Assembly (NCBI RefSeq): GCF_026191725.2
Contig: NZ_CP120863.1
Span: 2,336,001-2,400,000, forward strand
Origin: Roseibium porphyridii
GTDB lineage: Bacteria; Pseudomonadota; Alphaproteobacteria; Rhizobiales; Stappiaceae
Reading direction: 5' to 3'
Length of the DNA stretch: 64,000 nucleotides
Numbering within the stretch: the first letter of the stretch is position 1; each line of letters begins with the position of its first letter. The notes below the pieces were generated by a model, which was given only the letters and a program-made list of their open reading frames with translations, was not told the DNA's origin and searched no databases. Positions 1 to 50,505 of the stretch are shown here, in pieces. Position numbers and translations under genes: made by a program.

Positions 1-1
1 A

Positions 2-26
2 AAAGGGCGGCCACTGGCCGCCCTTT
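2..26 (-). terminator. Intrinsic terminator of the giant fibre-protein gene
   Basis: A perfect 11-bp inverted repeat (AAAGGGCGGCC, loop ACT, GGCCGCCCTTT) lies 25 bases beyond the stop of the minus-strand gene at 52-5562. Read on the minus strand the right arm ends in a T run, as expected for factor-independent termination. Confidence 0.8.
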
Positions 27-51
27 CTTGATATTCGAGGCTACAAGTTGA

Positions 52-3000
52 TCAGTCGAGACGACCGCTTGCATGTGCCAGCATTGTATAGACCTTGCCG
101 GTGTCGGAGGTCAGGTATGTCTGGCCTAGCATGTTGTCACGGTCGTTGCGGGAAACCTGAGCCAGCAATTGCTCGAAATCCGCAACATAACGCTCTACTG
201 CAGTCCGGAATTCAGGGTCGCGGGAATACTTCTGACGAATTTCGTCGAAGGTCTGCTGGCCCTGAAGGGTGTAGAGGCGGCGTGTAAACACGTGCCTTTC
301 ACCAGCGCGATAGCGGTTCCACAAGTCAATGAATGTCTCGTGGTCAATTGCACGTGCAATGTCGACGGAAAGCGAGTTGAGACTTTCAACAGTCTGCAGC
401 GGTGTCCGGCTCAAGTCTGTGTCAGAGCCGGCATCGTCGTCACTCGAGGCACGGCGCAAGAGATCCGCAACCCATCCTTTGCCGCTTGAACCGCCACTGG
501 CAGCCGGGGCCGGTTTTTGACGGCGTGGCTCGGCCGGGCGTGTTTGCTGCGGGCGCTGCTCGCTTGCAGGCGCTATCGGAGCAAAGCTTGCCGGGGCAGC
601 TTGCGGAGCTGGCTGTGGAGCCGGTTGCGGGGCGGGGGCCGCACTCGCCGTTGCTGCCTGAGCCTGGGGCTTAGAGATATCCAGAGCATTGGACTGTTTT
701 GCGACAATCTCTGAAAGCTCGGTCAGGGCGCGAATCTGCTCGTTGACCACCTTGCGGAGGGCTGCAGAAGACTCTTCCGCTTCATCCGGCAGATTAAGAA
801 CGCCCTGTTTGAGTTCGCTGCGCGTTGCCTCCAGCTCGTGATGCACTTCGCGTGCAACGTCACGCATGCGGCCGGCAGCATCGTTGAAGCGTTCGGAAGC
901 GTCGCTGACGGTGCGGGTCATCTCAGAGATGATGTCATCCTGAGCCGACCGGATGGCGTCTCTTGCCTTCTGGCCTTCCATACCTGCCGTCAGGCGCATC
1001 GATTCAAACTGCTCGGCAACCTGTTTGGATGCAGCTTCTGCTGCTGCACCCAGCATGTTGGCCGCATCGCGGGCCTTGTCGTCAGCTGACTCAAGCGTTT
1101 CCGACAGCGTCTGCGTAAAGGACCGCATCAGCGTATCAACCGCCTCCGTTTTTGCCAGCAACGTGTCGGCAACATCCTCAATGGCTGTGCGACGTTCGGA
1201 AACACGGCTCTCCACGGAGCTGTTTGTGTCTTCCAGGTGACGTGCAGCCTTGGTCAGTTCTTCTGACTGGTCGGTGAAGCGGCCGGTCAGGTTCCGGATA
1301 TCGGCAAGGGTCGTGTCTGTAACATCCCGCAGATTGGAAACCTGTTCGCCGATCAGCGATGTTGTGGAGTTGGTTTCCTGTACGGCGCGATCGACGGCGG
1401 AGCGGAACTCGCCTGCACGACGTGCCAGATTGCCTTCCACTTCCGTCAGGTTCTCGCCAGCGACACTGACGATTGTCTGGAGGTTGGAGTTGGAGTCCTC
1501 GATCTTGTTGAGGATCTCGGTCACATCCGCTTCCAGCCTGCGCTTTGTGTCGGTAAGCAGCGTCGTGGCCTGATCGCTGCGCTCGTTGATGCTGGCAACA
1601 ATCCGGTCACCTGCTTCGACGAGCGACCGGGTCGCGTCGAGGCCAGTGTGGGCAAATGTGTCAGTGACATCGCGACCCTTGACGGTGATGGCCTCAAGGA
1701 TGGCGTTGTGGACTTCCGAGAGACGGCCGGTGAGGTCGTTGGCACGGGTTTCGATCGCGTTGATCAACTCGTTGCCATCCGCGCCAACAATCTTGGCCAA
1801 CTCGCCGGAACGTGCGCCAAACGCCTCGTTCAAGCTGGTGGCCTTGCTCAGCAGCTCGTTCGCCACTTCGTTTCCACGGCCAACCAGAAGATCGGCGGCT
1901 TCCGCAACCGCGCTGTTGACGCGGGCGCGGACCATGCCAGCTTCGTTCGACATCTGGCCACGGATTTCTTCCAGTGTCTTTGCCAGGGTCAGGCGTGCCT
2001 GTTCGCTTTCCGCCGAAAGGTTGCCGGAGATTTCGGCAATCAGACCGGACAGTTCGCCGCGAACTTTCTCGCTTTCGCCGGTGAGGGATCCTGTGAATTC
2101 GGCCAGCGTACCGGCATAGAGCGTGCGGGCTTTTTCGCTCTCGGCGCCCATGGCCCGCGCTGCATCGGTAACTGCGGCCAAAACCAGCTCGCGGATCTTG
2201 CCGCTTTCGCCGGACATTGCCCCGGTCGCCTGCTGCATCGCTGCTGTAACCGCATCAGCTGCTTTTTGGCTCTCGCCGGCCAGCACACCGCGCGCTTCGC
2301 CAACGGAGCCCAGAACGATCTGACGCATGCGATCGCCTTCGCCGGTGAGCTTTTCGGTCGCCTGGTTCAAGGCGCCGTCAACAATCTCGACGGTTTTCGT
2401 GCGCTCGTCGGCAAGTGTCTGAACTGCAGCTGTGACCGCTTCCTGAACCACATCGCGCAGACGTGTGCTCTCGGTGGACAGGGTGGCGCCAGCTTCGGAG
2501 ATCACGGCCGTCAGGATATCCCGTGCACGCTCACTTTCTCCAGTGAGTGTGCCCGAGATGCTCTCCAGGCGTTCGTTGAGGAGTGTTTCCAGCTGCGTTG
2601 CGCGGCTGTCGAGTGTTTCAGCAACTTCGAACACCTTGGCACCGAGCGAAACGTTGATTTCCGCAATGCGCTCAGAAAGGGACTCCGTCAGTTGTTCACT
2701 CTGCTTGCCAAGGACGTTGCCGGCTTCAGCAAGTCTGTTGTCGAGCGCCGACGTCATTTCGTCCTGACCTTCCACAAAGGCCTGGGCGATTTCCTTTGTG
2801 CGGGAAATAAGCGTTTCGGAAATCTGACGCGCACGTGCATCCAGAGTTTCATCGATACGATCGGTGCCGCTGGTCATTGAAGCCGAAATGAGCTCTGCCT
2901 TGTCGGCCATTGCCGTCGCGGCACCATCAACACGGGTCGACAGGTTCTGACCGATTTCCTCGGCGCGGTCGGCAAGCGTATTGCCGGCAGATTCGATCCG

Positions 3001-5562
3001 CTGACCGAGTTGCAACGTGATCGCATCGGAGCGGTCCGCCAGAACGTCGGTGATGTTGCGGGTCTTTTCTTCCAGCGCTTCGCTGATCCCGGTCGTCCGG
3101 TTCTCGATGGCGTCGGACAGGATCTGGGTGCGGGCTTCGAGGGTTGCTTCAAAGGCAGCTGTGCGCTGATCCAGCGTCAGGTCCAACGTGTTGATATGGC
3201 TGCCGAGCGAAGAGTCCATCGTGGCGATACGCTCGCTAAGCGAACTGTCCAGAGATCCGACGCGCTGTTCCAACGATGCATCCATGGTGCTGATGCGGTC
3301 GGTGAGCGTTGCGTCCATGGTTGAGAAACGCTGGTCGAGAGAGGTGTCCATCGCGGTGAGGCGATTGCCGAGCGATGCGTCCATCGTGTCGATGCGCGAT
3401 GCGAACGTCGTATCGAGTGTGGACAGGCGTGAATCGAGCGCTTCGGACAAAAGAAGCGTCTTGGTATCGAACGCGTCGACCAGTTGACCGCCCTTGTCGG
3501 TGACGATGGATTCCAGTTCGGTAAGCCGTGTTGAAAGGCCTTCTTCGAGGGCCAGTCCGCGCACTTCCAGTGTTTCTGCGATCTTGCCGCTGATCTGGTT
3601 GATATCACCTGCCACGCGGTCGCCGCGGCTGCCGATGAGTTCAGCCAGCTGTGTGCCGGTTTCAGCCAGTTTGTGTGTCAGGTTACCAGTCTGTTCGCCG
3701 AGGCTTGCAGCAAACTGAGTGGAGACGCCTTCCAGCGTGTCGCGGAAACCGACCGTCTGCTGCTCGAGCATGGTCGCCATTTCGTTGCTGCGAGCGGTCA
3801 AACGCTCATCAAGCTCGGCGCCATTGATCGAAATTGCGGTGTAGATCCGCTCGGAAATCGTATCGAGCTTCTCCGCCAATTCACCACCGCGAACGGAAAT
3901 GGTCTGGGTGAGAGAACCGGCCGTTTCATCCAGCTTGGATGCAATCTCACCGCCGCGCAGCGACAGATCGACCACAATGCTTTCGCCTGTCCCGCGCAGG
4001 ATTTCAGCAACCTCGGTTGAGCGGCTGGACAGCGTTTCGACGATTTCAGCGCCCCGGATGGAAATGGTGTCGGTGACTGCCTGACCTTTTTCGGAAATGC
4101 TGTCGACGACCCGGGTTCCCGTCTCCGCGAGAGACTGATCGAGCGTGTTGACGCGTGTGTCGACCGTGGACACCAGCTCTTCAGTGCGGGAAGTGATTGT
4201 GTCGATCAGGCGTCCTGACGTCAGGGACAGGTTTGCGTTGATCTCTTCACCGCGTTGGGTGATCACTTCGCCGACGGAATTGCCGGTTGTTTCCAGAGTA
4301 AGCCGGAACTCGTCCGCCTTGCTGCTCAACGTGTCGATCACCGACGTGCTGGACGTGGTCATCGTGTCGTTGATTTCGGTGCTGCGGGCGGAAAGTGTCT
4401 CAACAAACGTATTTGCGGTATCGGCAAACCGGTCGTTGACTTCGTTGCCACGTGTCGAGAGCGTTTCCCACATTGTGGAGCCGGTTTCGGCCAGGTTGTC
4501 GACCAGTTCATTGCCGGTGCTGGACAGGCGGGCAACATAGTCTTCTGCGCGCACTGTCAGGCTGTCGACCAGTTCGTTGCCGGAGGCATTCAGGGTTGCA
4601 CCAAGAGATTCAATGCGCGAGTCGACGGTCGCGGTAAGCTCTTCCACGCGATTGTTGACTGCGTCAGTCAGGCGTTGAGTGGCCTGATCGACCGTTGTTC
4701 CCAGTTCACCGGATGTGTCGGACAGCTGCGAGGAGAATTTCTCATGCGCTCCGGCAATGGTTTCACGAACGCGCTCGGCATTCATGACGATGGATTCGCG
4801 CTGGCTGACCAGTTCCTCGATCAGGCCGCGGATTTTTAGCTCATTGTCATTGTAAGAGCGCTCGAGTGAGGAAACCTCATTGTGCACGAGGACTTCCAGC
4901 TCGCTTGCGCGGGCAATCGCCCTTTCGATGCCGTCGCCCATGGCCGCTACTTCGCGGCGGATGGCCTGGCCGACACTGAGAATGGATTCCTTCGCCATAT
5001 CTTCTGGTTCAGCAAGGCGCAAGGCGACTTCGGTCATACCACGGGCGACGATGCGCATTTCCTGCGCGCGCCAGATCATCATGGCCATGACAAAGAAGAA
5101 GATAATGGGGACGACAATTCCGACGATGGCCAGGATGACTTCCGGTGAAGACGTTAGTACCTGCGGATCAGTGAGCGAAGAGACCTTGTCGGAAAAGGCG
5201 GTCATGAAGAGACTGCCGCCGAGCGCTGCCCACACGGCACTCAGGGCGAGAGCGCCCCAGAACGGTGCCGAAGAGGGGCGGCGCTGAAGTGCATAGATAA
5301 GACTGCCGATGTTCCGACGATCGTCATTGGCTGCCGGCGGTCGTCCGCCGCGACCACGCCTGCGGGACTGGCGCTCCTCGCGCTGGGATGACCGGTTGTC
5401 CGCCTGCTGACTGCGCGCTGGCTCTGCATCAGCTGCTGCGCTCGCCTCAGGTGCCGCTTCCGCAGTCCCGGCTTCAGGGCCACCGAAATCGAGTTTCAGG
5501 GCTTCTTCAACCGCAGACAGTGCCGCTTCCGCCGGATCTTTCGCCTTTGTCGGATTTGCCAT
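52..5562 (-). CDS. Giant membrane-anchored hendecad-repeat fibre protein, 1836 aa
   Basis: Not recognised as a characterised protein; similar alphaproteobacterial proteins tend to be labelled apolipoprotein- or kinesin-like. Residues 1-100 are a charged, probably disordered head with an Arg/Gly-rich patch near 67-74. Two hydrophobic helices at about 101-122 and 141-164 suggest a hairpin anchor with both ends in the cytoplasm. From residue 261 to about 1338 the protein is an unbroken series of 11-residue repeats (pattern RxxEIxxxLxx), continuing less regularly to about 1393. Further helix follows to about 1625, then a Pro/Ala/Gln-rich linker (about 1633-1690) and a compact C-terminal domain (about 1717-1836) rich in Trp, Tyr and Phe. 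The likely role is a long intracellular cable or spacer tied to the inner membrane, which is inference. The ATG at 5562 is chosen because it opens the charged head. The gene appears monocistronic, with its own terminator. Confidence 0.85.
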   Translation of the reverse strand: MANPTKAKDPAEAALSAVEEALKLDFGGPEAGTAEAAPEASAAADAEPARSQQADNRSSQREERQSRRRGRGGRPPAANDDRRNIGSLIYALQRRPSSAPFWGALALSAVWAALGGSLFMTAFSDKVSSLTDPQVLTSSPEVILAIVGIVVPIIFFFVMAMMIWRAQEMRIVARGMTEVALRLAEPEDMAKESILSVGQAIRREVAAMGDGIERAIARASELEVLVHNEVSSLERSYNDNELKIRGLIEELVSQRESIVMNAERVRETIAGAHEKFSSQLSDTSGELGTTVDQATQRLTDAVNNRVEELTATVDSRIESLGATLNASGNELVDSLTVRAEDYVARLSSTGNELVDNLAETGSTMWETLSTRGNEVNDRFADTANTFVETLSARSTEINDTMTTSSTSVIDTLSSKADEFRLTLETTGNSVGEVITQRGEEINANLSLTSGRLIDTITSRTEELVSTVDTRVNTLDQSLAETGTRVVDSISEKGQAVTDTISIRGAEIVETLSSRSTEVAEILRGTGESIVVDLSLRGGEIASKLDETAGSLTQTISVRGGELAEKLDTISERIYTAISINGAELDERLTARSNEMATMLEQQTVGFRDTLEGVSTQFAASLGEQTGNLTHKLAETGTQLAELIGSRGDRVAGDINQISGKIAETLEVRGLALEEGLSTRLTELESIVTDKGGQLVDAFDTKTLLLSEALDSRLSTLDTTFASRIDTMDASLGNRLTAMDTSLDQRFSTMDATLTDRISTMDASLEQRVGSLDSSLSERIATMDSSLGSHINTLDLTLDQRTAAFEATLEARTQILSDAIENRTTGISEALEEKTRNITDVLADRSDAITLQLGQRIESAGNTLADRAEEIGQNLSTRVDGAATAMADKAELISASMTSGTDRIDETLDARARQISETLISRTKEIAQAFVEGQDEMTSALDNRLAEAGNVLGKQSEQLTESLSERIAEINVSLGAKVFEVAETLDSRATQLETLLNERLESISGTLTGESERARDILTAVISEAGATLSTESTRLRDVVQEAVTAAVQTLADERTKTVEIVDGALNQATEKLTGEGDRMRQIVLGSVGEARGVLAGESQKAADAVTAAMQQATGAMSGESGKIRELVLAAVTDAARAMGAESEKARTLYAGTLAEFTGSLTGESEKVRGELSGLIAEISGNLSAESEQARLTLAKTLEEIRGQMSNEAGMVRARVNSAVAEAADLLVGRGNEVANELLSKATSLNEAFGARSGELAKIVGADGNELINAIETRANDLTGRLSEVHNAILEAITVKGRDVTDTFAHTGLDATRSLVEAGDRIVASINERSDQATTLLTDTKRRLEADVTEILNKIEDSNSNLQTIVSVAGENLTEVEGNLARRAGEFRSAVDRAVQETNSTTSLIGEQVSNLRDVTDTTLADIRNLTGRFTDQSEELTKAARHLEDTNSSVESRVSERRTAIEDVADTLLAKTEAVDTLMRSFTQTLSETLESADDKARDAANMLGAAAEAASKQVAEQFESMRLTAGMEGQKARDAIRSAQDDIISEMTRTVSDASERFNDAAGRMRDVAREVHHELEATRSELKQGVLNLPDEAEESSAALRKVVNEQIRALTELSEIVAKQSNALDISKPQAQAATASAAPAPQPAPQPAPQAAPASFAPIAPASEQRPQQTRPAEPRRQKPAPAASGGSSGKGWVADLLRRASSDDDAGSDTDLSRTPLQTVESLNSLSVDIARAIDHETFIDLWNRYRAGERHVFTRRLYTLQGQQTFDEIRQKYSRDPEFRTAVERYVADFEQLLAQVSRNDRDNMLGQTYLTSDTGKVYTMLAHASGRLD

Positions 5563-5841
5563 TTAGGATCGCCTCACGTCCGTACTCATTACACACCGGT
5601 ATTTCAGCGAAGCTGCAAAAGCAGCTCCAAACAGTACCTACCGGATGCGTCGCTTCTGGGGCTGTTACACAGAATGCAACGCCACAAAATCTGTTCTTAG
5701 AGGAGGGCCGCCGCTGACCGACCGCGAACTTTCCGTTCGACGGTTCACTCCCCATCTTGCCGCATCAGTTACTGTAATGGCACAATCTCTCCTAACGAAC
5801 AAGAAACGGCAATAGCGTGAGTCACTTAGGGGGCAGTTTGA

Positions 5842-6156
5842 ATGCCGGAATCGAAGCAGGTCAGAGTCTCGAAAGACACTGGAAAAGGAGCAGTTTCCGC
5901 TTCGCTTAAAGCGGGTAATCTGACGGCTCCCCAAAAGCGTTGGTTGAAAAAAGGCCTTTCGCAACCGGGTGGCAAGCTGCCGCTCTTCGACGATAACGGG
6001 CGGGAAATTCCAGCCCGCACCATCCGTGCCTGTATAGAGGCAGGCTGGGCAGAGCCTTGGTTTTCCAACCCAATCAAGCCTGACTGGCTCGTTTGCAAGC
6101 TGACGCCTGCCGCGATTGATGTGCTTTCCGCAAGTCAAAAAAAGGGAAAAAGTTAA
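5842..6156 (+). CDS. Conserved-looking hypothetical protein, 104 aa
   Basis: I do not recognise this gene. It encodes a small basic soluble protein with no signal peptide or membrane segment. The N-terminal 25 residues are Lys/Ser/Thr-rich, followed by a compact part with two Trp-containing stretches (KRWLKKGL near 34-41, EAGWAEPWF near 66-74), which suggests a folded domain rather than random reading. An AGGGGGC Shine-Dalgarno-like sequence lies about 8 bases before the ATG. It is divergent from the fibre-protein gene, with 279 bases between the two starts. A helix-turn-helix or nucleic-acid-binding role is possible from the charge but cannot be shown. Confidence 0.6.
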   Translation: MPESKQVRVSKDTGKGAVSASLKAGNLTAPQKRWLKKGLSQPGGKLPLFDDNGREIPARTIRACIEAGWAEPWFSNPIKPDWLVCKLTPAAIDVLSASQKKGKS

Positions 6157-6410
6157 CGGCGGAACCTGAATTCAGGAAATTGCAACTTCGGGGAAATGAC
6201 GGAATTGCAAGGACTTTTTTAATCTCTCTTTAAGTGCTGACTGAAACTGCGTTAACCAAGATTTCAATTTTTTGGGGACATCAGCCGCTTCTGCGCCTTT
6301 GACGAGCTGATTTAACCCGGTGTTTGCGGCTTGGAGGGCACGCTCAATACCAGAAATTGCTTGCGGCCGGGTGCCGTCAGGCAGGTATTGAGTATTTTGG
6401 AGCACCCCTC

Positions 6411-7240
<830 letters not shown>

Positions 7241-10359: not shown

Positions 10360-12363
10360 ATGCGCATGCGTTCGGCTTTTCGTTATTCAATCACCGCCAA
10401 ATTGTTGGGTATTGTCGCGATCTGTGTCGGGTTTGTTGTCGCCGCGTCGGGTGTTGGCGTCTATCAAATCCGGAAAATCGGCCAGGAAATCGAGTTCATC
10501 GCAGAAGCCGAGGTTCCGCTGACGGATGCAATCGGTCACGTTACGGCCCACAGGCTTGAGCAGACATTTCTTGTCGAACGTCTGATGAGAATGAGTTTGA
10601 TTGGCATTGAAGGCCGGGAAGTCGGAAGCGAAGAGGAACGGGCCCAGACAGAAGCCAGGCTCCTCTACCTGGGTGGGAAGATAACCAGCGAATTCGCCGA
10701 CGTTGCCGAAATTGCCGAGCAAGGCATTTCACTTGCGAGCACAGAGGCACAGGTCACGGAATTTCAAACCGTTCTGAAAACCATCAGAGCGATCAGTCAA
10801 GAGCATGAAGACTACTCCGTTGCGATTTCCAAAATACTGAGCAAGTCCAAACGAGGTAACAGCCTTGAAGCGGAGAACCTGCTGCAGCAGGTGAGCGGAA
10901 CTCATTCCAAGTTCAATATGGAACTGGAACAACTTTTGTTCCGCGTGCAGGCGCTTGCCGAAAGCGCAGCAAAAGCGGCGGCTAAGCACGAGCAGAATGC
11001 CATACGTTTCACAATTCTGATTTCGTTGGGCGCGGCCGGATTTTCCGTCCTGTTGGCAATGTGGCTCGGAAGGTGGGCAATTGGTGTGCCTTTGCTTGAA
11101 GTCGTGAATGCCCTTCGCCGACTTTCCAGAAATGACTTTGACGCTGAATTGCCCGTGGACCGGAATGATGAAATCGGGGATATCGGCCGCGCTTTCAAGG
11201 CTTTCAAGGCGCATCTGATCAGAGTCAAGGAACAGGAACGCATTGAGATTGAAAGACAGACGGAGCTGACGCGGGAAATTCGCCTTTTGTCCGAGCTGAA
11301 CGAATGGCTGCAGTCGAGCAGCTCGCTGGACGAGCTGTTTGAAATGGTCAGCCTGTTCATGACCAAATTGCTGCCGAGCAGTGCGGGCGCCGTCTATGTT
11401 TACTCAAACTCGCGCGATGTGCTGGACGGAGCTTGTACCTGGAATGGCGGTATCCTGGAAGCGCATATTCGCCCCAACTCCTGCTGGGGACTGCGTCGTG
11501 GCAGGCCCTATATCTACGGCGACAACGAAGTCAGTTTCCGCTGTAGCCACGTCGCTCCAGATCTTGAAGACGATGTGTATCTTTGCTTGCCGATCCTGGC
11601 ACATGGAGAAACCGTTGGTTTGATGCATCTTTCTCCGGCTGCTGGCGCTAGCGATGAGGACTTTCTATCTCAGCGTAAACTTGCCCAGATGGCCGCAGAG
11701 CAAGTGAGTCTTGCAATCGCGAATACGCGCATGCGCGATGAACTTCACAACAAGTCGATAAGAGATCCTTTGACAGGCCTCTTCAACAGGCGGCATTTCA
11801 TTGATGTGTTGAGATCAGGGCTTGAACGCTCTCAGCACAATGGACAACCGATCTCACTGGTTTCGATTGACGTCGATCACTTCAAGAAATTCAACGACAA
11901 CTATGGTCACGATGCAGGTGACATGGTGTTGCGTGCGGTTGGATCGACGTTGGAAGAAGTCTGTGATGGCGATCAAATGCCGTGCCGTTTGGGCGGTGAG
12001 GAATTCATGGTTCTTCTTCCCGAGACATCCCTGTCTCACGCCGAAGACGTTGCCGAAATGGTCCGGGTTGCTATTGAAAAAATCGTGGTGCGTTACGGCG
12101 AAAAAAGCCTGCCGAAAATCACGGTTTCATGCGGTGTTGCGGGGTATCCAGACCATGGGCGCATACCTCAGGATCTTATGAAGTCCGCAGATGATGCCTT
12201 GTACCTTTCCAAAGACAATGGCCGGAACCGTGTCACGGTCGCCAGATCTGATTTTGATGAAACGGAAGACGATCTTGAGCTCCTGAGGGAAGATGCTGCA
12301 CAAGATCAGGAGACCGTTGCAATGAAACAAGGCGATGTCGCACACAAGGAAAATGCTGCCTAG
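10360..12363 (+). CDS. Membrane sensor diguanylate cyclase (HAMP-GAF-GGDEF), 667 aa
   Basis: Predicted to make cyclic di-GMP. One N-terminal membrane helix (about 13-35) and a second near 217-238 flank a helical periplasmic sensor. These are followed by a HAMP linker (about 239-290), a GAF domain (about 320-455) and a C-terminal GGDEF domain (about 465-630). The active-site loop is GGEEF at 545-549, a catalytically competent form. The inhibitory RxxD site expected nine to six residues before it is absent (D and Q occupy those places), so classical product inhibition is unlikely. The ATG at 10360 is favoured over the ATG at 10348 because GGAG lies 6 bases before it. Its stop overlaps the stop of the convergent methyltransferase gene. 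It may link c-di-GMP to the motility genes nearby (inference). Confidence 0.92.
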   Translation: MRMRSAFRYSITAKLLGIVAICVGFVVAASGVGVYQIRKIGQEIEFIAEAEVPLTDAIGHVTAHRLEQTFLVERLMRMSLIGIEGREVGSEEERAQTEARLLYLGGKITSEFADVAEIAEQGISLASTEAQVTEFQTVLKTIRAISQEHEDYSVAISKILSKSKRGNSLEAENLLQQVSGTHSKFNMELEQLLFRVQALAESAAKAAAKHEQNAIRFTILISLGAAGFSVLLAMWLGRWAIGVPLLEVVNALRRLSRNDFDAELPVDRNDEIGDIGRAFKAFKAHLIRVKEQERIEIERQTELTREIRLLSELNEWLQSSSSLDELFEMVSLFMTKLLPSSAGAVYVYSNSRDVLDGACTWNGGILEAHIRPNSCWGLRRGRPYIYGDNEVSFRCSHVAPDLEDDVYLCLPILAHGETVGLMHLSPAAGASDEDFLSQRKLAQMAAEQVSLAIANTRMRDELHNKSIRDPLTGLFNRRHFIDVLRSGLERSQHNGQPISLVSIDVDHFKKFNDNYGHDAGDMVLRAVGSTLEEVCDGDQMPCRLGGEEFMVLLPETSLSHAEDVAEMVRVAIEKIVVRYGEKSLPKITVSCGVAGYPDHGRIPQDLMKSADDALYLSKDNGRNRVTVARSDFDETEDDLELLREDAAQDQETVAMKQGDVAHKENAA

Positions 12364-13484
12364 GCTTTCCGAGTCAGCAGCATGGCAACCCCAATGTAGC
12401 GGAACGGATATGCGTCCGGGTTCGCCATCAGCAACTCCAGCGCCTTGGTGTAAACCTTGTTAACGAGCTTGTCCCGCCTGGGGCTGTCAGGCAGGGCATT
12501 TATTAAAACGGCTTCGGTAAAGGCGCGAAAGAAATCGACGTATTGCGCTGCGTACTCTGTCAGATTGCCGTTTCGCTGAAACGCTTCGTTGAATGGAACC
12601 GGCACTTCATAGGACATGCTTTGGTCGAGCTTGAACAAGTCTGAAACCGCGTATGAGGGATCGGTTGCAGGAGCGGTCAATTCTTCCAGCGACCTCATGT
12701 AAACGGGCTGGTAATAACGCGCATAGGCGTCTCTTGAGATTTCACCGTTTTCAACGAAAGCAAGAACCGCGTCATTGAGCAGGTCATAGATGCCGTCGCT
12801 GGTGCTCGCATCACTGTCACGTCCAAAGACCTGCACAATCAGCTTCCCGCCGGGAGCCAACTCACGAGCACGGACTTTTAGGAAACTGGCGACGTCCTGT
12901 TTGGCAAGCTCGGCAAATGCTTGACGATCGGTTTCGGAAACCTTCCCGTTTGACCGCACGGCGCTTGGGCCATTTGGAAAAATGTAGTCAGGCAACTGTG
13001 ACAGGGGACGGCGCGAGAGGAAGCCAATCGCATTGAAAGTTGTTGCCAGATGAAGAGAGCCATCGGGAACCAGCTGGTCATACATGGAGCCCGCCACAAC
13101 GCAGGAAAAGACCTTTTCGCTGCCAAATACGCTCCGGCCATCTGAGCGAATGTTCAAGAGCAGCTTTGAGAAGTCGTTTGTCGGCAGATCCGAGTGGATC
13201 GTCTGGATGGAACGTGTTGTGCGAGGCAACAAGGTATCGAGCGCTTCAGCCATGACCGCAATGGAATTGTGCCCTTCTGAGCAGCCGAAGTCGGCAAGCC
13301 TGATCGTCCCTTCACCTTCAACTTCAAGAGTTGCCATTGCATTTGTGATGAGTGGAAAGACAGCTTCAATCGCACGCCATTGAGGCGCTGAGTTCGCATC
13401 ATAGAAGCCGCCGCCCACCATCCCGGTTGTCGTGGCATGCGAGGCTTGTGTCGCTTTCGTGGATTGTCTGTCCGTTTCCGTCAC
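12360..13484 (-). CDS. SABATH-family SAM-dependent methyltransferase, 374 aa
   Basis: Resembles the SABATH carboxyl/N-methyltransferases best known from plants (salicylate, jasmonate and caffeine enzymes). Numbered from the GTG start, blocks in the family order are: the N-terminal GMVGGGFYDANS (21-32), the SAM-binding ADFGCSEGHNS (64-74), HSDLPTNDF (97-105), GSMYDQLVPDGSLHLATTF (132-150), and ELAPGGKLIVQVFGR (208-222). Length agrees with the family. A GTG at 13484 is chosen because TGGAG stands before it and the homologous region starts soon after; longer in-frame reading upstream overlaps no recognisable domain. An ATG 21 codons later is an alternative start. The methyl acceptor is probably a small carboxylic acid by family analogy. 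The stop overlaps the convergent cyclase stop by 4 bases. Confidence 0.85.
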   Translation of the reverse strand: MTETDRQSTKATQASHATTTGMVGGGFYDANSAPQWRAIEAVFPLITNAMATLEVEGEGTIRLADFGCSEGHNSIAVMAEALDTLLPRTTRSIQTIHSDLPTNDFSKLLLNIRSDGRSVFGSEKVFSCVVAGSMYDQLVPDGSLHLATTFNAIGFLSRRPLSQLPDYIFPNGPSAVRSNGKVSETDRQAFAELAKQDVASFLKVRARELAPGGKLIVQVFGRDSDASTSDGIYDLLNDAVLAFVENGEISRDAYARYYQPVYMRSLEELTAPATDPSYAVSDLFKLDQSMSYEVPVPFNEAFQRNGNLTEYAAQYVDFFRAFTEAVLINALPDSPRRDKLVNKVYTKALELLMANPDAYPFRYIGVAMLLTRKA

Positions 13485-13642
13485 GCAATTCACTCCACTG
13501 ATCTGCACTATGTGTGTGTGCCGGCAATGAGACCCGTCAAGGACTTTTGGGGGCAAGAGCAGGACGCTATTTCGAACTTGCGCAAACGATGCGGATTTGT
13601 TGATCCATCGACGCGGAATTCGTGAGGCTTTTGGCGCAGTGA

Positions 13643-14818
13643 TCAACGCGCCAATTCCTTCATGGCCTCCGAGAGACCCTCGACGGTCATCGGGAACATG
13701 CGACTTTCCATGAGTTCGTTCAGCATTTGTATGGAATGTGTGTAGGTCCAATGTTCTTCGCGCACGGGGTTCAACCACACTGCACTTTTGTAGAGGCCTG
13801 TCACGCGCTGCATCCATGTCGCCCCGGCTTCTTCATTCCAATGCTCGACAGACCCTCCCGGATAGGCAATTTCATAAGGGCTCATCGATGCATCGCCGAC
13901 AAAGATGATCTTGTAGTCGGCCGGATATTTGTGCAGCACATCCATGGTTGGAATGCGTTCCGTGTGGCGGCGGCGATTTTCTTTCCAGACATATTCATAG
14001 AGGCAATTGTGGAAATAGAAATGCTCCATGACCTTGAATTCAGACCGCGCCGCTGAAAACAGTTCTTCGCAAACCCTGATGTGGTCGTCCATCGAACCGC
14101 CGATATCGAAGAACAAAAGCACTTTGACTGCATTGTGCCGTTCCGGACGCATCTTAATGTCCAAAAGCCCTTTATGTGCGGTAGACCGGATAGTGTCATC
14201 GAGATCAAGCTCATCTGCCGCGCCTGTTCTTGCAAAATTGCGCAGGCGTTTCAGGGCGACTTGAATGTTTCGTGTGCCGAGGAGCTGGTTGTCATCCAGA
14301 TCCTTGAAGTCTCTCTTGTCCCAGACCTTGACCGCACGCCGGTGCCGACTTTCGTGCTGACCGATGCGCACCCCTTCGGGATTGTAACCATAAGCGCCAA
14401 AGGGCGACGTGCCGGCGGTGCCGATCCATTTGTTTCCGCCCTGATGGCGCTTTTGTTGCTCTTTCAGGCGTTCGCGCAGAGTTTCCATCAATTTGTCGAA
14501 ACCACCCAAGGCTTCGATCTGCGCTTTCTCTTCTTCGCTCAGGTGCTTTTCTGCCAGGCGGCGGAGCCATTCTTCGGGAATGTCTTCAGAGGGAACCTCG
14601 CTCAGAAGATCAAGACCTTTGAAGACGTGTCCAAAAACGCGATCAAACTTATCCAGGTTGCCTTCATCCTTCACCAGGCAAAGGCGCGCCAGATAGTAGA
14701 AGTCTTCGACGCTTTTTTCCGCAAGATCATTGTCCAATGCTTCCATGAGCGTGAGATATTCCCGCAAGGAAACCGGAACGCCGGCAGCTTTCAGCTCAGA
14801 AAAGAAATTGATGAACAT
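13643..14818 (-). CDS. CoxE-like von Willebrand factor A domain protein, 391 aa
   Basis: A cytoplasmic VWA protein of the CoxE-like type. The metal-ion-dependent adhesion site reads DIGGSM at 238-243, with Gly in place of the first Ser of the classical DxSxS. The N-terminal 130 residues are helical, and a basic Gly/His segment precedes the VWA fold. Such proteins typically work with MoxR-type AAA ATPases in maturation or remodelling of protein complexes. A MoxR gene lies 3.8 kb upstream on the same strand (18662-19507), separated by four other genes, so a functional pair is plausible. The client is unknown. Confidence 0.85.
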   Translation of the reverse strand: MFINFFSELKAAGVPVSLREYLTLMEALDNDLAEKSVEDFYYLARLCLVKDEGNLDKFDRVFGHVFKGLDLLSEVPSEDIPEEWLRRLAEKHLSEEEKAQIEALGGFDKLMETLRERLKEQQKRHQGGNKWIGTAGTSPFGAYGYNPEGVRIGQHESRHRRAVKVWDKRDFKDLDDNQLLGTRNIQVALKRLRNFARTGAADELDLDDTIRSTAHKGLLDIKMRPERHNAVKVLLFFDIGGSMDDHIRVCEELFSAARSEFKVMEHFYFHNCLYEYVWKENRRRHTERIPTMDVLHKYPADYKIIFVGDASMSPYEIAYPGGSVEHWNEEAGATWMQRVTGLYKSAVWLNPVREEHWTYTHSIQMLNELMESRMFPMTVEGLSEAMKELAR

Positions 14819-46218: not shown

Positions 46219-49200
46219 TTGCGGGTACCGTTCTTGACATTGCAGAAGAATGACGGATCTGTCGGGCTTGGCAGTGCAAGCCCTTTGCTGCGTCTTCTTC
46301 ACGCTGCACTTCTTTGCTTGATACTGTTCACCGCAGCGGCGAGCGTAACAGCCAATGCTGAAACGCTCGAGCCGGTGGAACTCGATGCCATTCAGGAAGA
46401 GCGCTACGGGCGGATCGTCCTGACTTTCAAAGACCGTACGCTGTTGCCGATCTACGATGCGGTGATCACGGGCGGCGTTCTCAGAATATCCTTCGAAGAA
46501 CCGATCGACATCAAAGTTGATGATGTGCCGCTTGATCTTGGCGATTATGTCACGATCGCCCGCCGGGACCCGGACGGCAGCGCGATCCGTTTTGCGCTCA
46601 AGAATCAATTCCAGATCAACACGCTGGAAGCGGGCGAGAAGCTCTTTGTCGACATTTTGCCAATGGATTGGCAGGGGCTTCCTCCGGGGCTTCCGGACGA
46701 CGTCGTTCGGGAACTGGCCAAGCGTGCTGAAGCTGCAATGCGCAAGGTGCGTGCGCTTGAACAAGCCCGGCTGAAAGCCCAGGAAGGGCCGGAAGTTACC
46801 TTGCACGTGGGAGAACATCCGACTTTCACACGCCTTGTGTTTGACTGGTCAATCAAGTTCGACACCGCTTTCGTGCGGGAAAACGACATCATCAAGCTGA
46901 CGTTCAATCATCCGGCCCAGCTCGACATTGCTCACTTGCGCGCTCACCTTCCTCAAGGTGTCATTGATGCAACGTCTTTTCTGGATAAGGGCAAGCTCAA
47001 GTTTCTGATGCGTGTCGAACCCTCGGTCGATATCCGTGCTTTCCGCGAGGAACAGACCTACGTTATCGACGTCACGCCTGAGAACATGCAGGTGAATGAC
47101 CCGGCCAACGCGTTGATCAACAAAGAGCTGTCGGTTGAAGACAATCAAAACCGTAAGAACATGATCAGCGCGCCCGGTTTGCGCGATACACGTGAAGTCG
47201 ACGATCCACGAGGTCTGCCTCCGGCACAAACATCAAGCGCCAGTGGCGGTGTTTTGAAGGAATCGACGGCGGACGACTCGCCGGCCTATACCGTTGTTCC
47301 AATCGAGCGCGGCAACAATGGAGCGGCGACGCCAGAAGCGGCGGTCCCGCAGGCACAGCAATCTGATCAGGCCGCCGCGGTGTTCCCCGAGGTGCCGACT
47401 GATGCTGAGGCGATCGATGTTCCGAACCAGCAGATTGCCATGGTGCCACGCACGAAACCCAACCTTGAGGAACCAGCCCCGCCGCAGCTGACGGCAGAGG
47501 CGGGGCCACCGGCCAATGTTCGATCGGCTGACGCGCAGATCGACATCCTTCCGCAAGTTGCCACAACGACCGCTCCGGCGGTCGAAACGCTTCCTGCACC
47601 AGAAGTTGTTGCATCTGGTTTGCTTGTTGCCGGTAACGCACAAGGCGAAGACGACGACCTGACCACAGCGACAATTGCCAGCACTACAGAGGCGGACAAT
47701 GAGCCAGCACCGATGGTGTTGGCGCAGGCCGAGACTGGCGCTCAGACAGGGGAGGAAACGCCGACCGGAGACGAAGTCGTCCGCAAAGCGCCTATGTTGG
47801 ACCTTTCCAAGCAGAAGCCTGGTCAGACGCAAGCCACGCCCGTGAGCAATGGCATTCCAACATTGGAGCCTGTCGAAGCCGCTGTGCCGGACAGCCAGCC
47901 TGAGGTGCCCGTTCCAAATGGAGCTGTGCAGGTTCAGGAGCAGCGCACGTTTGGCGGCGGTGAGGTGCCTGCAGGTATTCAACTGCCTTCACGCCCGGAA
48001 AACGCACCAGAGGTCTGGCGCGCCCAAGGCGGCCGCGAGGCCAACGAGATGCCTTCACCGGAAACGCCGCCAGCGAGTTTTGCGGCAGAAGCCCGTAAGA
48101 TCGTGTCTGCCGAAGCGCGCCGGATCGGCAACACGGTAAGAGTTGTCTTTCCGTTTTCAGAACCTGTTTCCAGTGCAGTCTTTCGCCGCAATGACAGTAT
48201 CTGGTTGGTTTTCGACACCGATGCCACCATCGATACACGGGGCATGGCGGCAGCGCTTGCCGAGACGGTGGACGCCATCGCTGTCAAGCACTTCGAAGAC
48301 TACCAGATCCTCCGCCTTGACATGAACGATCCGGTTCTTGCGACTGTTGGCGCAGACGGAAATGCATGGTCGCTGGTTATCGGGGACATGATCCTGGAAC
48401 CTTCCCGGCCTCTGCAGCTGGAACGGACCGTGCGCGGCGATGGCGGTTCAGTGCTCCGCGTTCTCTATCAGGACCCTCAAAATATTCGTCAGGTTGTCGA
48501 CCCGTTTGTGGGAGACAAGATTTCACTTGTCACCGGCTTCGGACCTCCCAGAGGTTTGTTGAAGCAGCAAAGCTTTGTTGAACTCGATGCACTGAGTTCC
48601 GCGCAGGGTATCGCCATCGTCGGGAAATCCGACGAATTGAAGGTGAAGATCCTTGGCGACGATGTGATGATTGAAAAAGAAGGCGGTCTCTCGCTTTCAA
48701 ATCGGCATTTGCGCGGCGGCACTGGCGCTTTCAATTCAATCATTGCGCCGGATGACAGCAACAATGTCGAATTCGTCTCGTTGAGCACGGAAGGTCCGGG
48801 TGCGTACCGGTCAAGGTTGCTGGAGTTGCAGGCAAAGCTTGCAAGATCTCCGGAAGGCAAGCGCCGCAAACCTCTCATGGCGCTGTCGCGTTTCTATCTG
48901 GCGCATCAGTTTGCACAGGAAGCGCTCGGGTTGATGAAGCTGGCGCTCGAGGAAGAGCCTGCACTTGCCGAAGACAGCTCGTTCAATCTGATGATGGGCG
49001 CGGCCCAGACAATGGCTGACCGTCCTCAAGAAGCCTATATGCACCTGAACCGGCCAGATCTGAAAAACAGCCCAGACGCTGCGGTCTGGCAGACAATTGT
49101 GGACGTCAAGCTCGGCAAATGGACACCGGCACGGATCGCGATGCCACGTGGCCGCGCGGTTGTTGGCAATTATCCATCTGCGATACAGACCGAATTCAAG

Positions 49201-50505
49201 CTTGCAGCTGCGCAGGCGATGGTCGAGGTCAACGATTTTGGACTTGCCAACGGTATTCTGGCTGAAATTGAACCGAGTGAAGTCACCCAGGCGCAGGCCG
49301 CACGCTATGACATTTTGCGCGGCCGGGTCGCCGATGCCTCGGGCCGGTCCCAGGAAGCGCTTACGGTGTTTGACCTTGTCACGCGATCTGACGACCGTCC
49401 ACGCTCAGCTGAGGCAGAGTACCGGGCCTTGAGAATCCGGTACCGCGACGGTGAAATCGACAATGATGAAACGATCGAGCGGCTTGCCAGCCTCGCCACT
49501 TCCTGGCGCGGGGATGAAATCGAGCTCAAGACGTTGCGTTTCCTATCGCAGCTTTATGCGGAACGGGGGCAATATCGGGAAGCCTTTGAGGCCATGAAAT
49601 CGGCTGTTCAGGCAGAACCCGACTCCGACACAACGCGTCTCTTGCAGGAAGAGATGAACGGCCTCTTCAATGCGCTGTTCCTTGACGGCAAAGCAGATGA
49701 GATGCAGCCCGTCAAAGCGCTGGCTCTTTACTACGACTTCCGCGAAATGACGCCGATTGGGCGCCAGGGCGACGAGATGGTGCGCCTTTTGGCCAAGCGA
49801 CTTGTCGAAGTGGATCTGCTTGATCAGGCGACGGAACTGCTGCGCCATCAGGTGGACAATCGCCTGAAGGGAGCAGCGCGTGCACAAATTGCTGCAGACC
49901 TTGCGGCCATCTATCTGATGGATCGGAAAGCCGACGAAGCACTTCGGGTCCTGAACAGGACCCGGCAAGCAAGTTTACCCTCGACGCTGGAGCGGCAACG
50001 CAACATCGTCGAGGCGAGGGCACTCACCGAAAATGGCCGTCCTGACCTTGCATTGGAGCTGGTCCGCAACATGCGCGGGTCTGATGTCGACCGGTTGCGC
50101 GCAGATACGTTCTGGGCCGCGGAAAGCTGGAGAGATGCGGGCGAACAGCTGGAGGCCATGCACGGTTCACGCTGGTCTGACAATATTCCCCTGGGCGAGC
50201 TTGAGCGCCGTGACATACTGCGCGCCGGTATTGCTTACTCCCTTGCTGGCGACCAATTGAGTTTGGAACGCCTGCAGACGAAATACATGAAGAAAATGGC
50301 GGACAGCCAGGAAGCGATGGCCTTTGAGGTCGTGACCCGCCCGGTTGAGACGCAGGGTGTGGAATTCCTGGAAGTGGCCAATGCTCTTGCAGATGTCGAT
50401 TCACTTGAAACCTTCCTGAAAGAGTATCGCCGTCAGTACATGTCGCCAGACAGCAACAGGGGACAGGCGGCGGCCGGCCCCGAGGCTGAGGAAGCAGCGG
50501 GCTGA
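46219..50505 (+). CDS. Giant exported TPR protein in the fliM operon, 1428 aa
   Basis: Not recognised as a named protein. A TTG start at 46219 is used because a Sec signal peptide begins there (hydrophobic core about 24-42, probable cleavage after TANA near 47) and no ATG precedes the conserved start; AGGG lies just upstream. Domains: AMIN-like beta repeats at about 50-270 (twice EERYGRIVLTFKDR-like) and again near 640-760; an acidic, Pro/Ala-rich linker about 300-620; and a C-terminal array of TPR-like helical repeats about 855-1400. It lies 94 bases after motE in the same direction. A periplasmic scaffold for the motor or flagellar envelope parts is plausible (inference). Confidence 0.8.
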   Translation: MRVPFLTLQKNDGSVGLGSASPLLRLLHAALLCLILFTAAASVTANAETLEPVELDAIQEERYGRIVLTFKDRTLLPIYDAVITGGVLRISFEEPIDIKVDDVPLDLGDYVTIARRDPDGSAIRFALKNQFQINTLEAGEKLFVDILPMDWQGLPPGLPDDVVRELAKRAEAAMRKVRALEQARLKAQEGPEVTLHVGEHPTFTRLVFDWSIKFDTAFVRENDIIKLTFNHPAQLDIAHLRAHLPQGVIDATSFLDKGKLKFLMRVEPSVDIRAFREEQTYVIDVTPENMQVNDPANALINKELSVEDNQNRKNMISAPGLRDTREVDDPRGLPPAQTSSASGGVLKESTADDSPAYTVVPIERGNNGAATPEAAVPQAQQSDQAAAVFPEVPTDAEAIDVPNQQIAMVPRTKPNLEEPAPPQLTAEAGPPANVRSADAQIDILPQVATTTAPAVETLPAPEVVASGLLVAGNAQGEDDDLTTATIASTTEADNEPAPMVLAQAETGAQTGEETPTGDEVVRKAPMLDLSKQKPGQTQATPVSNGIPTLEPVEAAVPDSQPEVPVPNGAVQVQEQRTFGGGEVPAGIQLPSRPENAPEVWRAQGGREANEMPSPETPPASFAAEARKIVSAEARRIGNTVRVVFPFSEPVSSAVFRRNDSIWLVFDTDATIDTRGMAAALAETVDAIAVKHFEDYQILRLDMNDPVLATVGADGNAWSLVIGDMILEPSRPLQLERTVRGDGGSVLRVLYQDPQNIRQVVDPFVGDKISLVTGFGPPRGLLKQQSFVELDALSSAQGIAIVGKSDELKVKILGDDVMIEKEGGLSLSNRHLRGGTGAFNSIIAPDDSNNVEFVSLSTEGPGAYRSRLLELQAKLARSPEGKRRKPLMALSRFYLAHQFAQEALGLMKLALEEEPALAEDSSFNLMMGAAQTMADRPQEAYMHLNRPDLKNSPDAAVWQTIVDVKLGKWTPARIAMPRGRAVVGNYPSAIQTEFKLAAAQAMVEVNDFGLANGILAEIEPSEVTQAQAARYDILRGRVADASGRSQEALTVFDLVTRSDDRPRSAEAEYRALRIRYRDGEIDNDETIERLASLATSWRGDEIELKTLRFLSQLYAERGQYREAFEAMKSAVQAEPDSDTTRLLQEEMNGLFNALFLDGKADEMQPVKALALYYDFREMTPIGRQGDEMVRLLAKRLVEVDLLDQATELLRHQVDNRLKGAARAQIAADLAAIYLMDRKADEALRVLNRTRQASLPSTLERQRNIVEARALTENGRPDLALELVRNMRGSDVDRLRADTFWAAESWRDAGEQLEAMHGSRWSDNIPLGELERRDILRAGIAYSLAGDQLSLERLQTKYMKKMADSQEAMAFEVVTRPVETQGVEFLEVANALADVDSLETFLKEYRRQYMSPDSNRGQAAAGPEAEEAAG

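Follow-up and report, generated by a model that had tools for sequence, protein, structure and literature searches.

A long hendecad repeat protein of the GPR/RgsE family in Roseibium porphyridii as a probable growth-pole scaffold

The 64,000-nucleotide stretch of the Roseibium porphyridii chromosome analysed here (contig NZ_CP120863.1, positions 2,336,001 to 2,400,000; hereafter the window) begins with a minus-strand gene for a giant membrane-anchored protein, the middle part of which consists of about a hundred 11-residue blocks. The locus raises the question of what this protein is and what the repeats are for. The initial annotation, made from the sequence alone, proposed a tether or cable inside the cell and called the function unknown. 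The latter does not hold, as orthologues have been studied under the names GPR (Agrobacterium) and RgsE (Sinorhizobium, Brucella) and act in growth at the pole; a scaffold rod is a better fit than a tether or cable. The features of the gene and its neighbours are as follows.

52..5562, minus strand: gene of the GPR/RgsE orthologue, 1,836 aa (open reading frame call, genome match, alignments)
5194..5265, minus strand: transmembrane helix TM1, residues 100-123 (hydropathy, model)
5071..5145, minus strand: transmembrane helix TM2, residues 140-164 (hydropathy, model)
4786..5070, minus strand: conserved juxtamembrane helix, residues 165-259 (61-protein alignment, 61% identity to Agrobacterium sp. 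with TM2 included, model)
1492..4776, minus strand: rod of hendecads that keeps a single register throughout, residues 263-1357 (block division, periodicity, register HMM)
1549-4782, minus strand: the 98 blocks of the initial annotation, residues 261-1338, inside the rod gene
676..1491, minus strand: residues 1358-1629, a helical region that is near-heptad in places and lacks a constant hendecad register
703-837, minus strand: conserved LKRG/LKQG-type motif, residues 1576-1620, within that helical region
478..675, minus strand: proline/alanine-rich linker, residues 1630-1695
445..483, minus strand: short stretch with a GW-type motif, predicted to be helical (residues 1694-1706)
55..399, minus strand: predicted C-terminal helical domain, residues 1722-1836 (helix prediction, moderate confidence)
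6324..6773, plus strand: neighbouring Hpt-domain protein
6824..7240, plus strand: neighbouring 2Fe-2S ferredoxin

The protein is single-copy, with one match only in its own genome (5.94 Mb), and is almost certainly the orthologue of GPR/RgsE, given the identity of its anchor and C-terminal domain, its size, the proline linker and the gene order. Compared with the counterpart in Agrobacterium sp. AGB01 (2,127 aa), TM2 and the juxtamembrane helix are 61% identical over 120 residues and the C-terminal domain 74% over 112 residues; full-length alignment of the repeats gives 27%. In all identity figures the characterised proteins Atu1348 and SMc00190 are represented by congeneric ones, and the AGB01 protein was taken from the best 80 of 135 named relatives, which come from Rhizobium, Sinorhizobium, Agrobacterium, Mesorhizobium, Phyllobacterium, Tianweitania and other Rhizobiales. 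The Sinorhizobium homologues are 2,119-2,155 aa long, counted from the most upstream start; one of them is 42% identical to the AGB01 protein, the same value as published for RgsE and GPR (PMC7327166). Homology outside the repeats, in the anchor and the C-terminal domain, is also seen in alignments of 25 and 21 sequences.

One flank of the gene carries the Hpt protein and the ferredoxin, and the other a Mla-type transporter (MlaE, ATPase, MlaD and an auxiliary lipoprotein). Among ten named loci, some with short flanks, matches at E <= 1e-10 show that all 10 have the ferredoxin, 7 the Hpt protein, 7 the auxiliary lipoprotein and 6 MlaE. The Agrobacterium sp. AGB01 locus has gpr and Hpt as an inverted pair, with the Mla genes on one side and the ferredoxin on the other. 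The host Mla-type locus itself (L208:6640-11242, on the chromosome left of the window) is tail-to-tail with gpr, and its MlaE carries a STAS domain. Two other genes of the window were recorded in passing. The 485-aa product of 12363-13817 (minus strand) matches PF03492 (E 7e-39), a SAM-dependent carboxyl methyltransferase family known mainly from plants, and NCBIfam gave nothing for it at 1e-3; a 1,428-aa open reading frame at 46219-50502 (plus strand) has weak NCBIfam matches, far under cut-off, and no Pfam match at 1e-5.

The two-helix anchor proposed by the initial annotation is backed both by hydropathy and by an AlphaFold2 model of residues 60-330 (single chain, block pLDDT 67-93, pTM 0.34), in which TM1 and a short loop are followed by a single helix comprising TM2 and the juxtamembrane region (residues 140-280). 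Basic residues flank the anchor before TM1 and after TM2, which suggests that both ends of the protein are in the cytoplasm, as also stated for RgsE (PMC7327166) and GPR (PMC8262873). As to the folded C-terminal domain proposed at the same time, a helical domain is predicted there with moderate confidence.

The repeats obey a strict register. Residues 261-1338 indeed divide into 98 consecutive blocks of 11 residues with zero insertions or deletions. Position 9 of the block is occupied by LIVMF in 97 of the 98 blocks and position 5 in 80, while position 2 is G, A, S or T in 66; the 2-5-9 spacing (3, 4, 4) is the hendecad pattern. The LIVMF spectrum of this segment has its maximum at 3.666 residues, and its power at 11/3 is 152, compared with 6.2 for the top of 2,000 shuffles. 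The check on 7-residue spacing was run on the same spectrum: power is 0.1 at 7 and 0.4 at 3.5, such spacing is absent and the hendecad model survives, whereas a heptad or SMC-like coil was rejected for these residues. For part of residues 1394-1640, with spectral peaks at 3.608 and 3.528, a heptad coil is possible. A register HMM recovers one unbroken run from residue 263 to 1357 (1,095 residues; 1,103 under a slightly different background), the longest run in 200 shuffles being 23 residues; trained on the window protein, the HMM is circular in favour of that protein and not circular for others. Both proline and cysteine are absent from residues 261-1338.

Sequence identity exceeds expectation 3.07-fold at lag 22 and 2.26-fold at lag 11, which points to a 22-residue super-repeat superposed on the hendecads. 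Lag 22 also exceeds lag 11 in 52 of the 57 rods measured, that is, in those of 80 intact proteins that have a locked segment of at least 300 residues. At the DNA level the repeats must be old, since Tandem Repeats Finder reported three short arrays in window positions 1-6000 (periods 12, 7 and 18) and no 33- or 66-base unit there. Recent DNA repeat expansion was ruled out, these arrays not being of the repeat unit. Antisense open reading frames of up to 410 aa lie opposite the repeats (window 1648-2880, plus strand) and are probably a by-product of the codon pattern of the rod gene.

The initial observation is thus sound in substance, and partly confirmed: the 11-residue register is real over about 1,100 residues, and the hendecad rod is backed by periodicity and the register HMM. 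Several of its details need correction. The motifs said to describe most blocks, RxxEIxxxLxx and TGxxLxxxLxx, match literally in 5 and 1 of the 98 blocks, and the loose pattern ....[LIVMFA]...[LIVMFY].. is satisfied by 96. Five further blocks were said to keep the phase to residue 1393; both core positions are kept in one of the five, and the local spectral peak of 3.58 and the register break at 1357/1358 also contradict this. That the count returns to 1836, offered as proof of phasing, is mere arithmetic. The estimated length is arithmetically correct: at the alpha-helical rise of 0.15 nm per residue, 1,095 residues would reach ~164 nm if fully extended. Taken overall, the interpretation put on the repeats is partly supported.

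The register is widespread in Rhizobium's order. The longest run found there has 1,653 residues, the window protein ranks 9th among the 80 intact proteins, and runs of at least 660 residues occur in 30 of them. Hendecad content ranges from 22 to 2,225 residues and a few proteins have little register; rod length thus varies widely and no single length is required. Whether homologues keep the 11-residue phase had been suggested as a check: within the order they mostly do, and Mesorhizobium-type rods do so only in part, being built of 29- and 36-residue units in which steps of 11 alternate with steps of 7, so that "always 11" is not the rule. Similar units, readable as 11+11+7 and 11+11+7+7, are seen at L178, L187 and other Mesorhizobium loci. 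Unlike these, Rhizobium rods are mostly hendecad. Nineteen of the loci L100-L119 come from outside the order; 10 of them have zero register, and the maximum run there is 183 residues (L117, with 535 hendecad residues altogether).

Gap sizes in alignments of close relatives follow the same register. We counted gap intervals, which are not strictly independent events, in 67 proteins. Of the 80 named loci, 6 had been dropped before the count for cut or broken reading frames, and of the 74 full-length proteins that were left, L173-L177, L181 and L183 were too few or too distant. By chance about 49% of the lengths from 1 to 59 can be written as 7a+11b; from 60 upwards every length can, and such gaps were excluded. 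All 38 rod intervals shorter than 60 aa have this form, compared with 2 of 65 in the C-terminal tail. On the rod side, before the LKRG-type motif, it holds in 22/22 intervals in Rhizobium, 3/3 in Sinorhizobium and 13/13 in Mesorhizobium; on the tail side, after the motif, in 2/40, 0/2 and 0/23, respectively. Gaps of 1-6 residues number 0 in the rod alignments and 54 of 65 in the tail. Pairwise alignments of 751 related pairs contain a single misfit, of 4 residues, among unique rod indels shorter than 60. Rod length in the compared close relatives therefore shifts by steps that preserve the helical pattern. Whole-unit slippage may be part of the cause; it leaves the lack of small indels unexplained.

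A function at the growth pole is expected from the orthologues. Agrobacterium GPR forms a ring at the growth pole, and cells without it are round (PMC8262873). RgsE is found at the growing pole with TolQ, RgsA and RgsS as partners (PMC7327166), and Brucella RgsE is at the new pole, where a C-terminal fusion is also polar; the latter placement shows no distance between the two protein ends. In the complementation assay, loss of the last 221 residues of GPR abolished function; GPR lacking the last 332 still made paired foci and was affected more mildly (PMC8262873). The deletions fit a C-terminal domain acting beyond the rod, and a simple rod-plus-head model does not predict that the larger one is the milder. 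Foci also persisted when GPR with predicted coiled-coil segments of about 20 residues deleted was expressed alone (PMC8262873), which weighs against the rod reading.

The best explanation, to which we give a probability of about 0.6 as a whole, is that the protein scaffolds the growth pole as a hendecad coiled-coil rod anchored in the membrane. The setting is a GPR/RgsE orthologue in a member of Rhizobium's order that has no full-score MreB. The two-helix hairpin would hold the protein in the inner membrane and leave both of its ends on the cytoplasmic side, and TM2 is predicted to run on unbroken into the conserved juxtamembrane helix, followed by the rod, in which the register is directly observed. 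Through the 2-5-9 stripe, with a small residue at 2 and aliphatic ones at 5 and 9, several copies would probably pack in parallel, forming an almost straight coiled coil up to ~165 nm long. Past the rod would come the less regular helical region, the proline linker and the small helical C-terminal domain. Judging by the Agrobacterium and Sinorhizobium orthologues, the expected site is the growing pole, where the protein would scaffold envelope synthesis and the rod would fix reach or spacing from the membrane to the C-terminal domain. That the extended, register-dependent rod is the working form we regard as an even bet.

The rod charge and the D value favour a coiled coil and speak against a helix that lies flat on anionic lipids. 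Net charge is -7.3 per 100 residues in the window rod and negative in 57 of 57 rods measured, in which D, computed by the HeliQuest formula, is at most 0.07. The GPR authors proposed instead that apolipoprotein-like amphipathic helices, folded back on themselves, serve to bind lipids at the growth pole or to sort them there, a reading that we consider unlikely. They modelled two regions as apolipoprotein-like helix bundles and argued that the protein must fold, as its foci are 50 nm wide (PMC8262873). In the window protein PF01442 scores 236 bits against a cut-off of 90, the top PDB sequence match is apolipoprotein A-IV (E 2e-5), and a Mla-type lipid transporter is among the neighbour genes. 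The 236 bits are spread over 12 stretches, each below the cut-off by itself, and below-cut-off PF01442 matches also occur in 7 of 14 control genomes; the match may thus be one of periodicity only, and descent from apolipoproteins is not established by it. The rod helix carries a narrow 2-5-9 stripe, the charge and D values just given speak against the lipid-binding proposal, and a strict register without small indels would be needless for loose lipid-binding helices. The focus argument also loses force, because the functional GPR fusion carries GFP at its N terminus (PMC8262873), near the membrane, so that focus size probably reports mainly the membrane end. The figure of 600 nm that the GPR authors state for an extended helical stretch of 1,700 residues (PMC8262873) compares with about 255 nm for an alpha helix of that many residues.

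Two further readings seem to us very improbable. In one, the rod is a ZorA-like signal-carrying tail that couples a TolQ-type motor complex to cytoplasmic partners via the TM2-juxtamembrane helix. RgsE does interact with TolQ (PMC7327166), TM2 and the rod form one continuous helix in the model, and there is a weak ZorA profile match (E 1.3e-8). The ZorA scores are, however, 33.6, 20 and 18.3 bits against cut-offs of 190, 500 and 250, too low for membership of that family; the ZorA models also match coiled-coil stretches of relatives, and a Pfam search of the protein found no motor domain. The other reading takes the rod for a flexible or phase-separating spacer, with repeats and whole-unit indels arising from unequal crossing-over and not from selection on register. 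In its favour, no gap size is as frequent in the Rhizobium alignment as 44 residues (9 of 26 intervals), some lineages have repeat units that resemble one another, and disordered GPR ends have been suggested to promote condensates (PMC13170164). In the window, however, the DNA repeats have decayed and the register is retained, and the predominance of 1-6-residue gaps in the tail has no counterpart in the rod. We keep to the membrane-anchored coiled-coil rod.

A wider form of the scaffold reading, which we advance tentatively and hold to be doubtful as a whole, makes GPR/RgsE a mast: a length-tunable, straight, register-locked hendecad coiled coil of ~25 to 250 nm depending on the species. Its length would evolve by quanta of 7 and 11 residues that preserve the helix, and it would have grown giant only in lineages that had lost MreB, where it took over the spatial organisation of polar wall synthesis, at a single pole. 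The 50-nm foci are compatible with such a mast, as the functional fusion is tagged at the membrane end. Of the 101 genomes of the order, 14 have an MreB that scores above cut-off, and the host genome has none that does. More than 850 hendecad residues are reached by the rods of 50 of 67 MreB-less genomes and of 0 of 12 MreB-bearing ones (Fisher p 1e-6, kinship between genomes ignored), and 17 MreB-less genomes carry short rods. The comparison covers 81 of the 97 genomes with a C-terminal domain match; the 16 left out include G441, which has MreB, and the table is without G456 and G470 (incomplete reading frames) and G283 (outside the MreB search). G393 was scored as MreB-less despite a partial match of 95.9 bits, perhaps cut by a contig end, and moving it does not affect the pattern. 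Most short rods cluster in the gene tree, in which the outgroup is not monophyletic and some supports are low, with MreB-less lineages among them. The link between MreB loss and giant rods is therefore a lead only, as it may reflect one or two independent changes.

The C-terminal domain is more widespread than the rod. It is present in 97 of 101 genomes of Rhizobium's order and in 144 of 385 genomes of the class, in proteins of very different length. A Pfam/NCBIfam search with E up to 1 found no model with its best stretch in this domain; PF28217, a newer Pfam entry, is listed, without coordinates, for some relatives. L209, L210 and L211 encode relatives of 861-874 aa that have the C-terminal domain in common. 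L210 belongs to Erythrobacter (Sphingomonadales) or a close neighbour of it. Its record and several relatives (Erythrobacter, Aurantiacibacter) are labelled "ATPase", apparently a wrong annotation for what is a coiled-coil protein.

Already described in print are the family, its polar position and the helical, apolipoprotein-like character of its members (PMC8262873, PMC7327166, PMC9938171, PMC8546619, PMC13170164, PMC9731437). The breadth of the C-terminal domain, the order-wide register and the quantised gaps appear to be new descriptions of it; no paper in the open-access literature searched treats hendecads jointly with a growth pole ring, ZorA or Rhizobiales. In bacteria without MreB that grow at one pole, GPR/RgsE is a leading scaffold candidate, and the register-locked view with its 7/11 gap steps makes the function of the rod genetically testable. 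Two printed readings are thereby questioned, namely that the repeats indicate apolipoprotein kinship and that 50-nm foci force folding.

Among known systems, the apolipoproteins have helical repeats of 11 and 22 residues, and apolipoproteins A1, A4 and E (PF01442) share helical repeats and the profile match with the window protein, which differs from them in its membrane anchor, far greater length, narrow stripe and negative net charge. ZorA of Zorya defence has a long helical tail that resembles the rod; the window protein falls far below the ZorA cut-offs and is without a motor domain match. GPR is said to resemble Caulobacter TipN (PMC8546619), a polar landmark like GPR/RgsE, of 882 aa according to PMC13170164. 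TipN appeared neither among the best 80 of 135 named relatives, which do not cover Caulobacter, nor in protein searches. Any likeness to TipN in sequence would be drawn through short relatives from outside the order, which share the anchor region and C-terminal domain with the window protein; unlike the window rod, these relatives have little or no hendecad register.

The closest counterparts are GPR and RgsE themselves. GPR of Agrobacterium tumefaciens (Atu1348, 2,115 aa) has two N-terminal membrane helices and PF01442-like repeats along most of its length, as does the window protein, and a proline-rich stretch at 1,890-2,000, corresponding to residues 1630-1695 here (PMC8262873); it exceeds the window protein by 279 residues. 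The words hendecad, 11-mer, 22-mer and repeat do not occur in the GPR paper (PMC8262873). The longest register run of the Agrobacterium sp. AGB01 protein is 806 residues, in contrast to the one unbroken run of the window rod. RgsE of Sinorhizobium meliloti (SMc00190, 2,089 aa; PMC7327166) shares its layout with the window protein, and the three Sinorhizobium relatives that stand in for it have longest runs of 608-672 residues.
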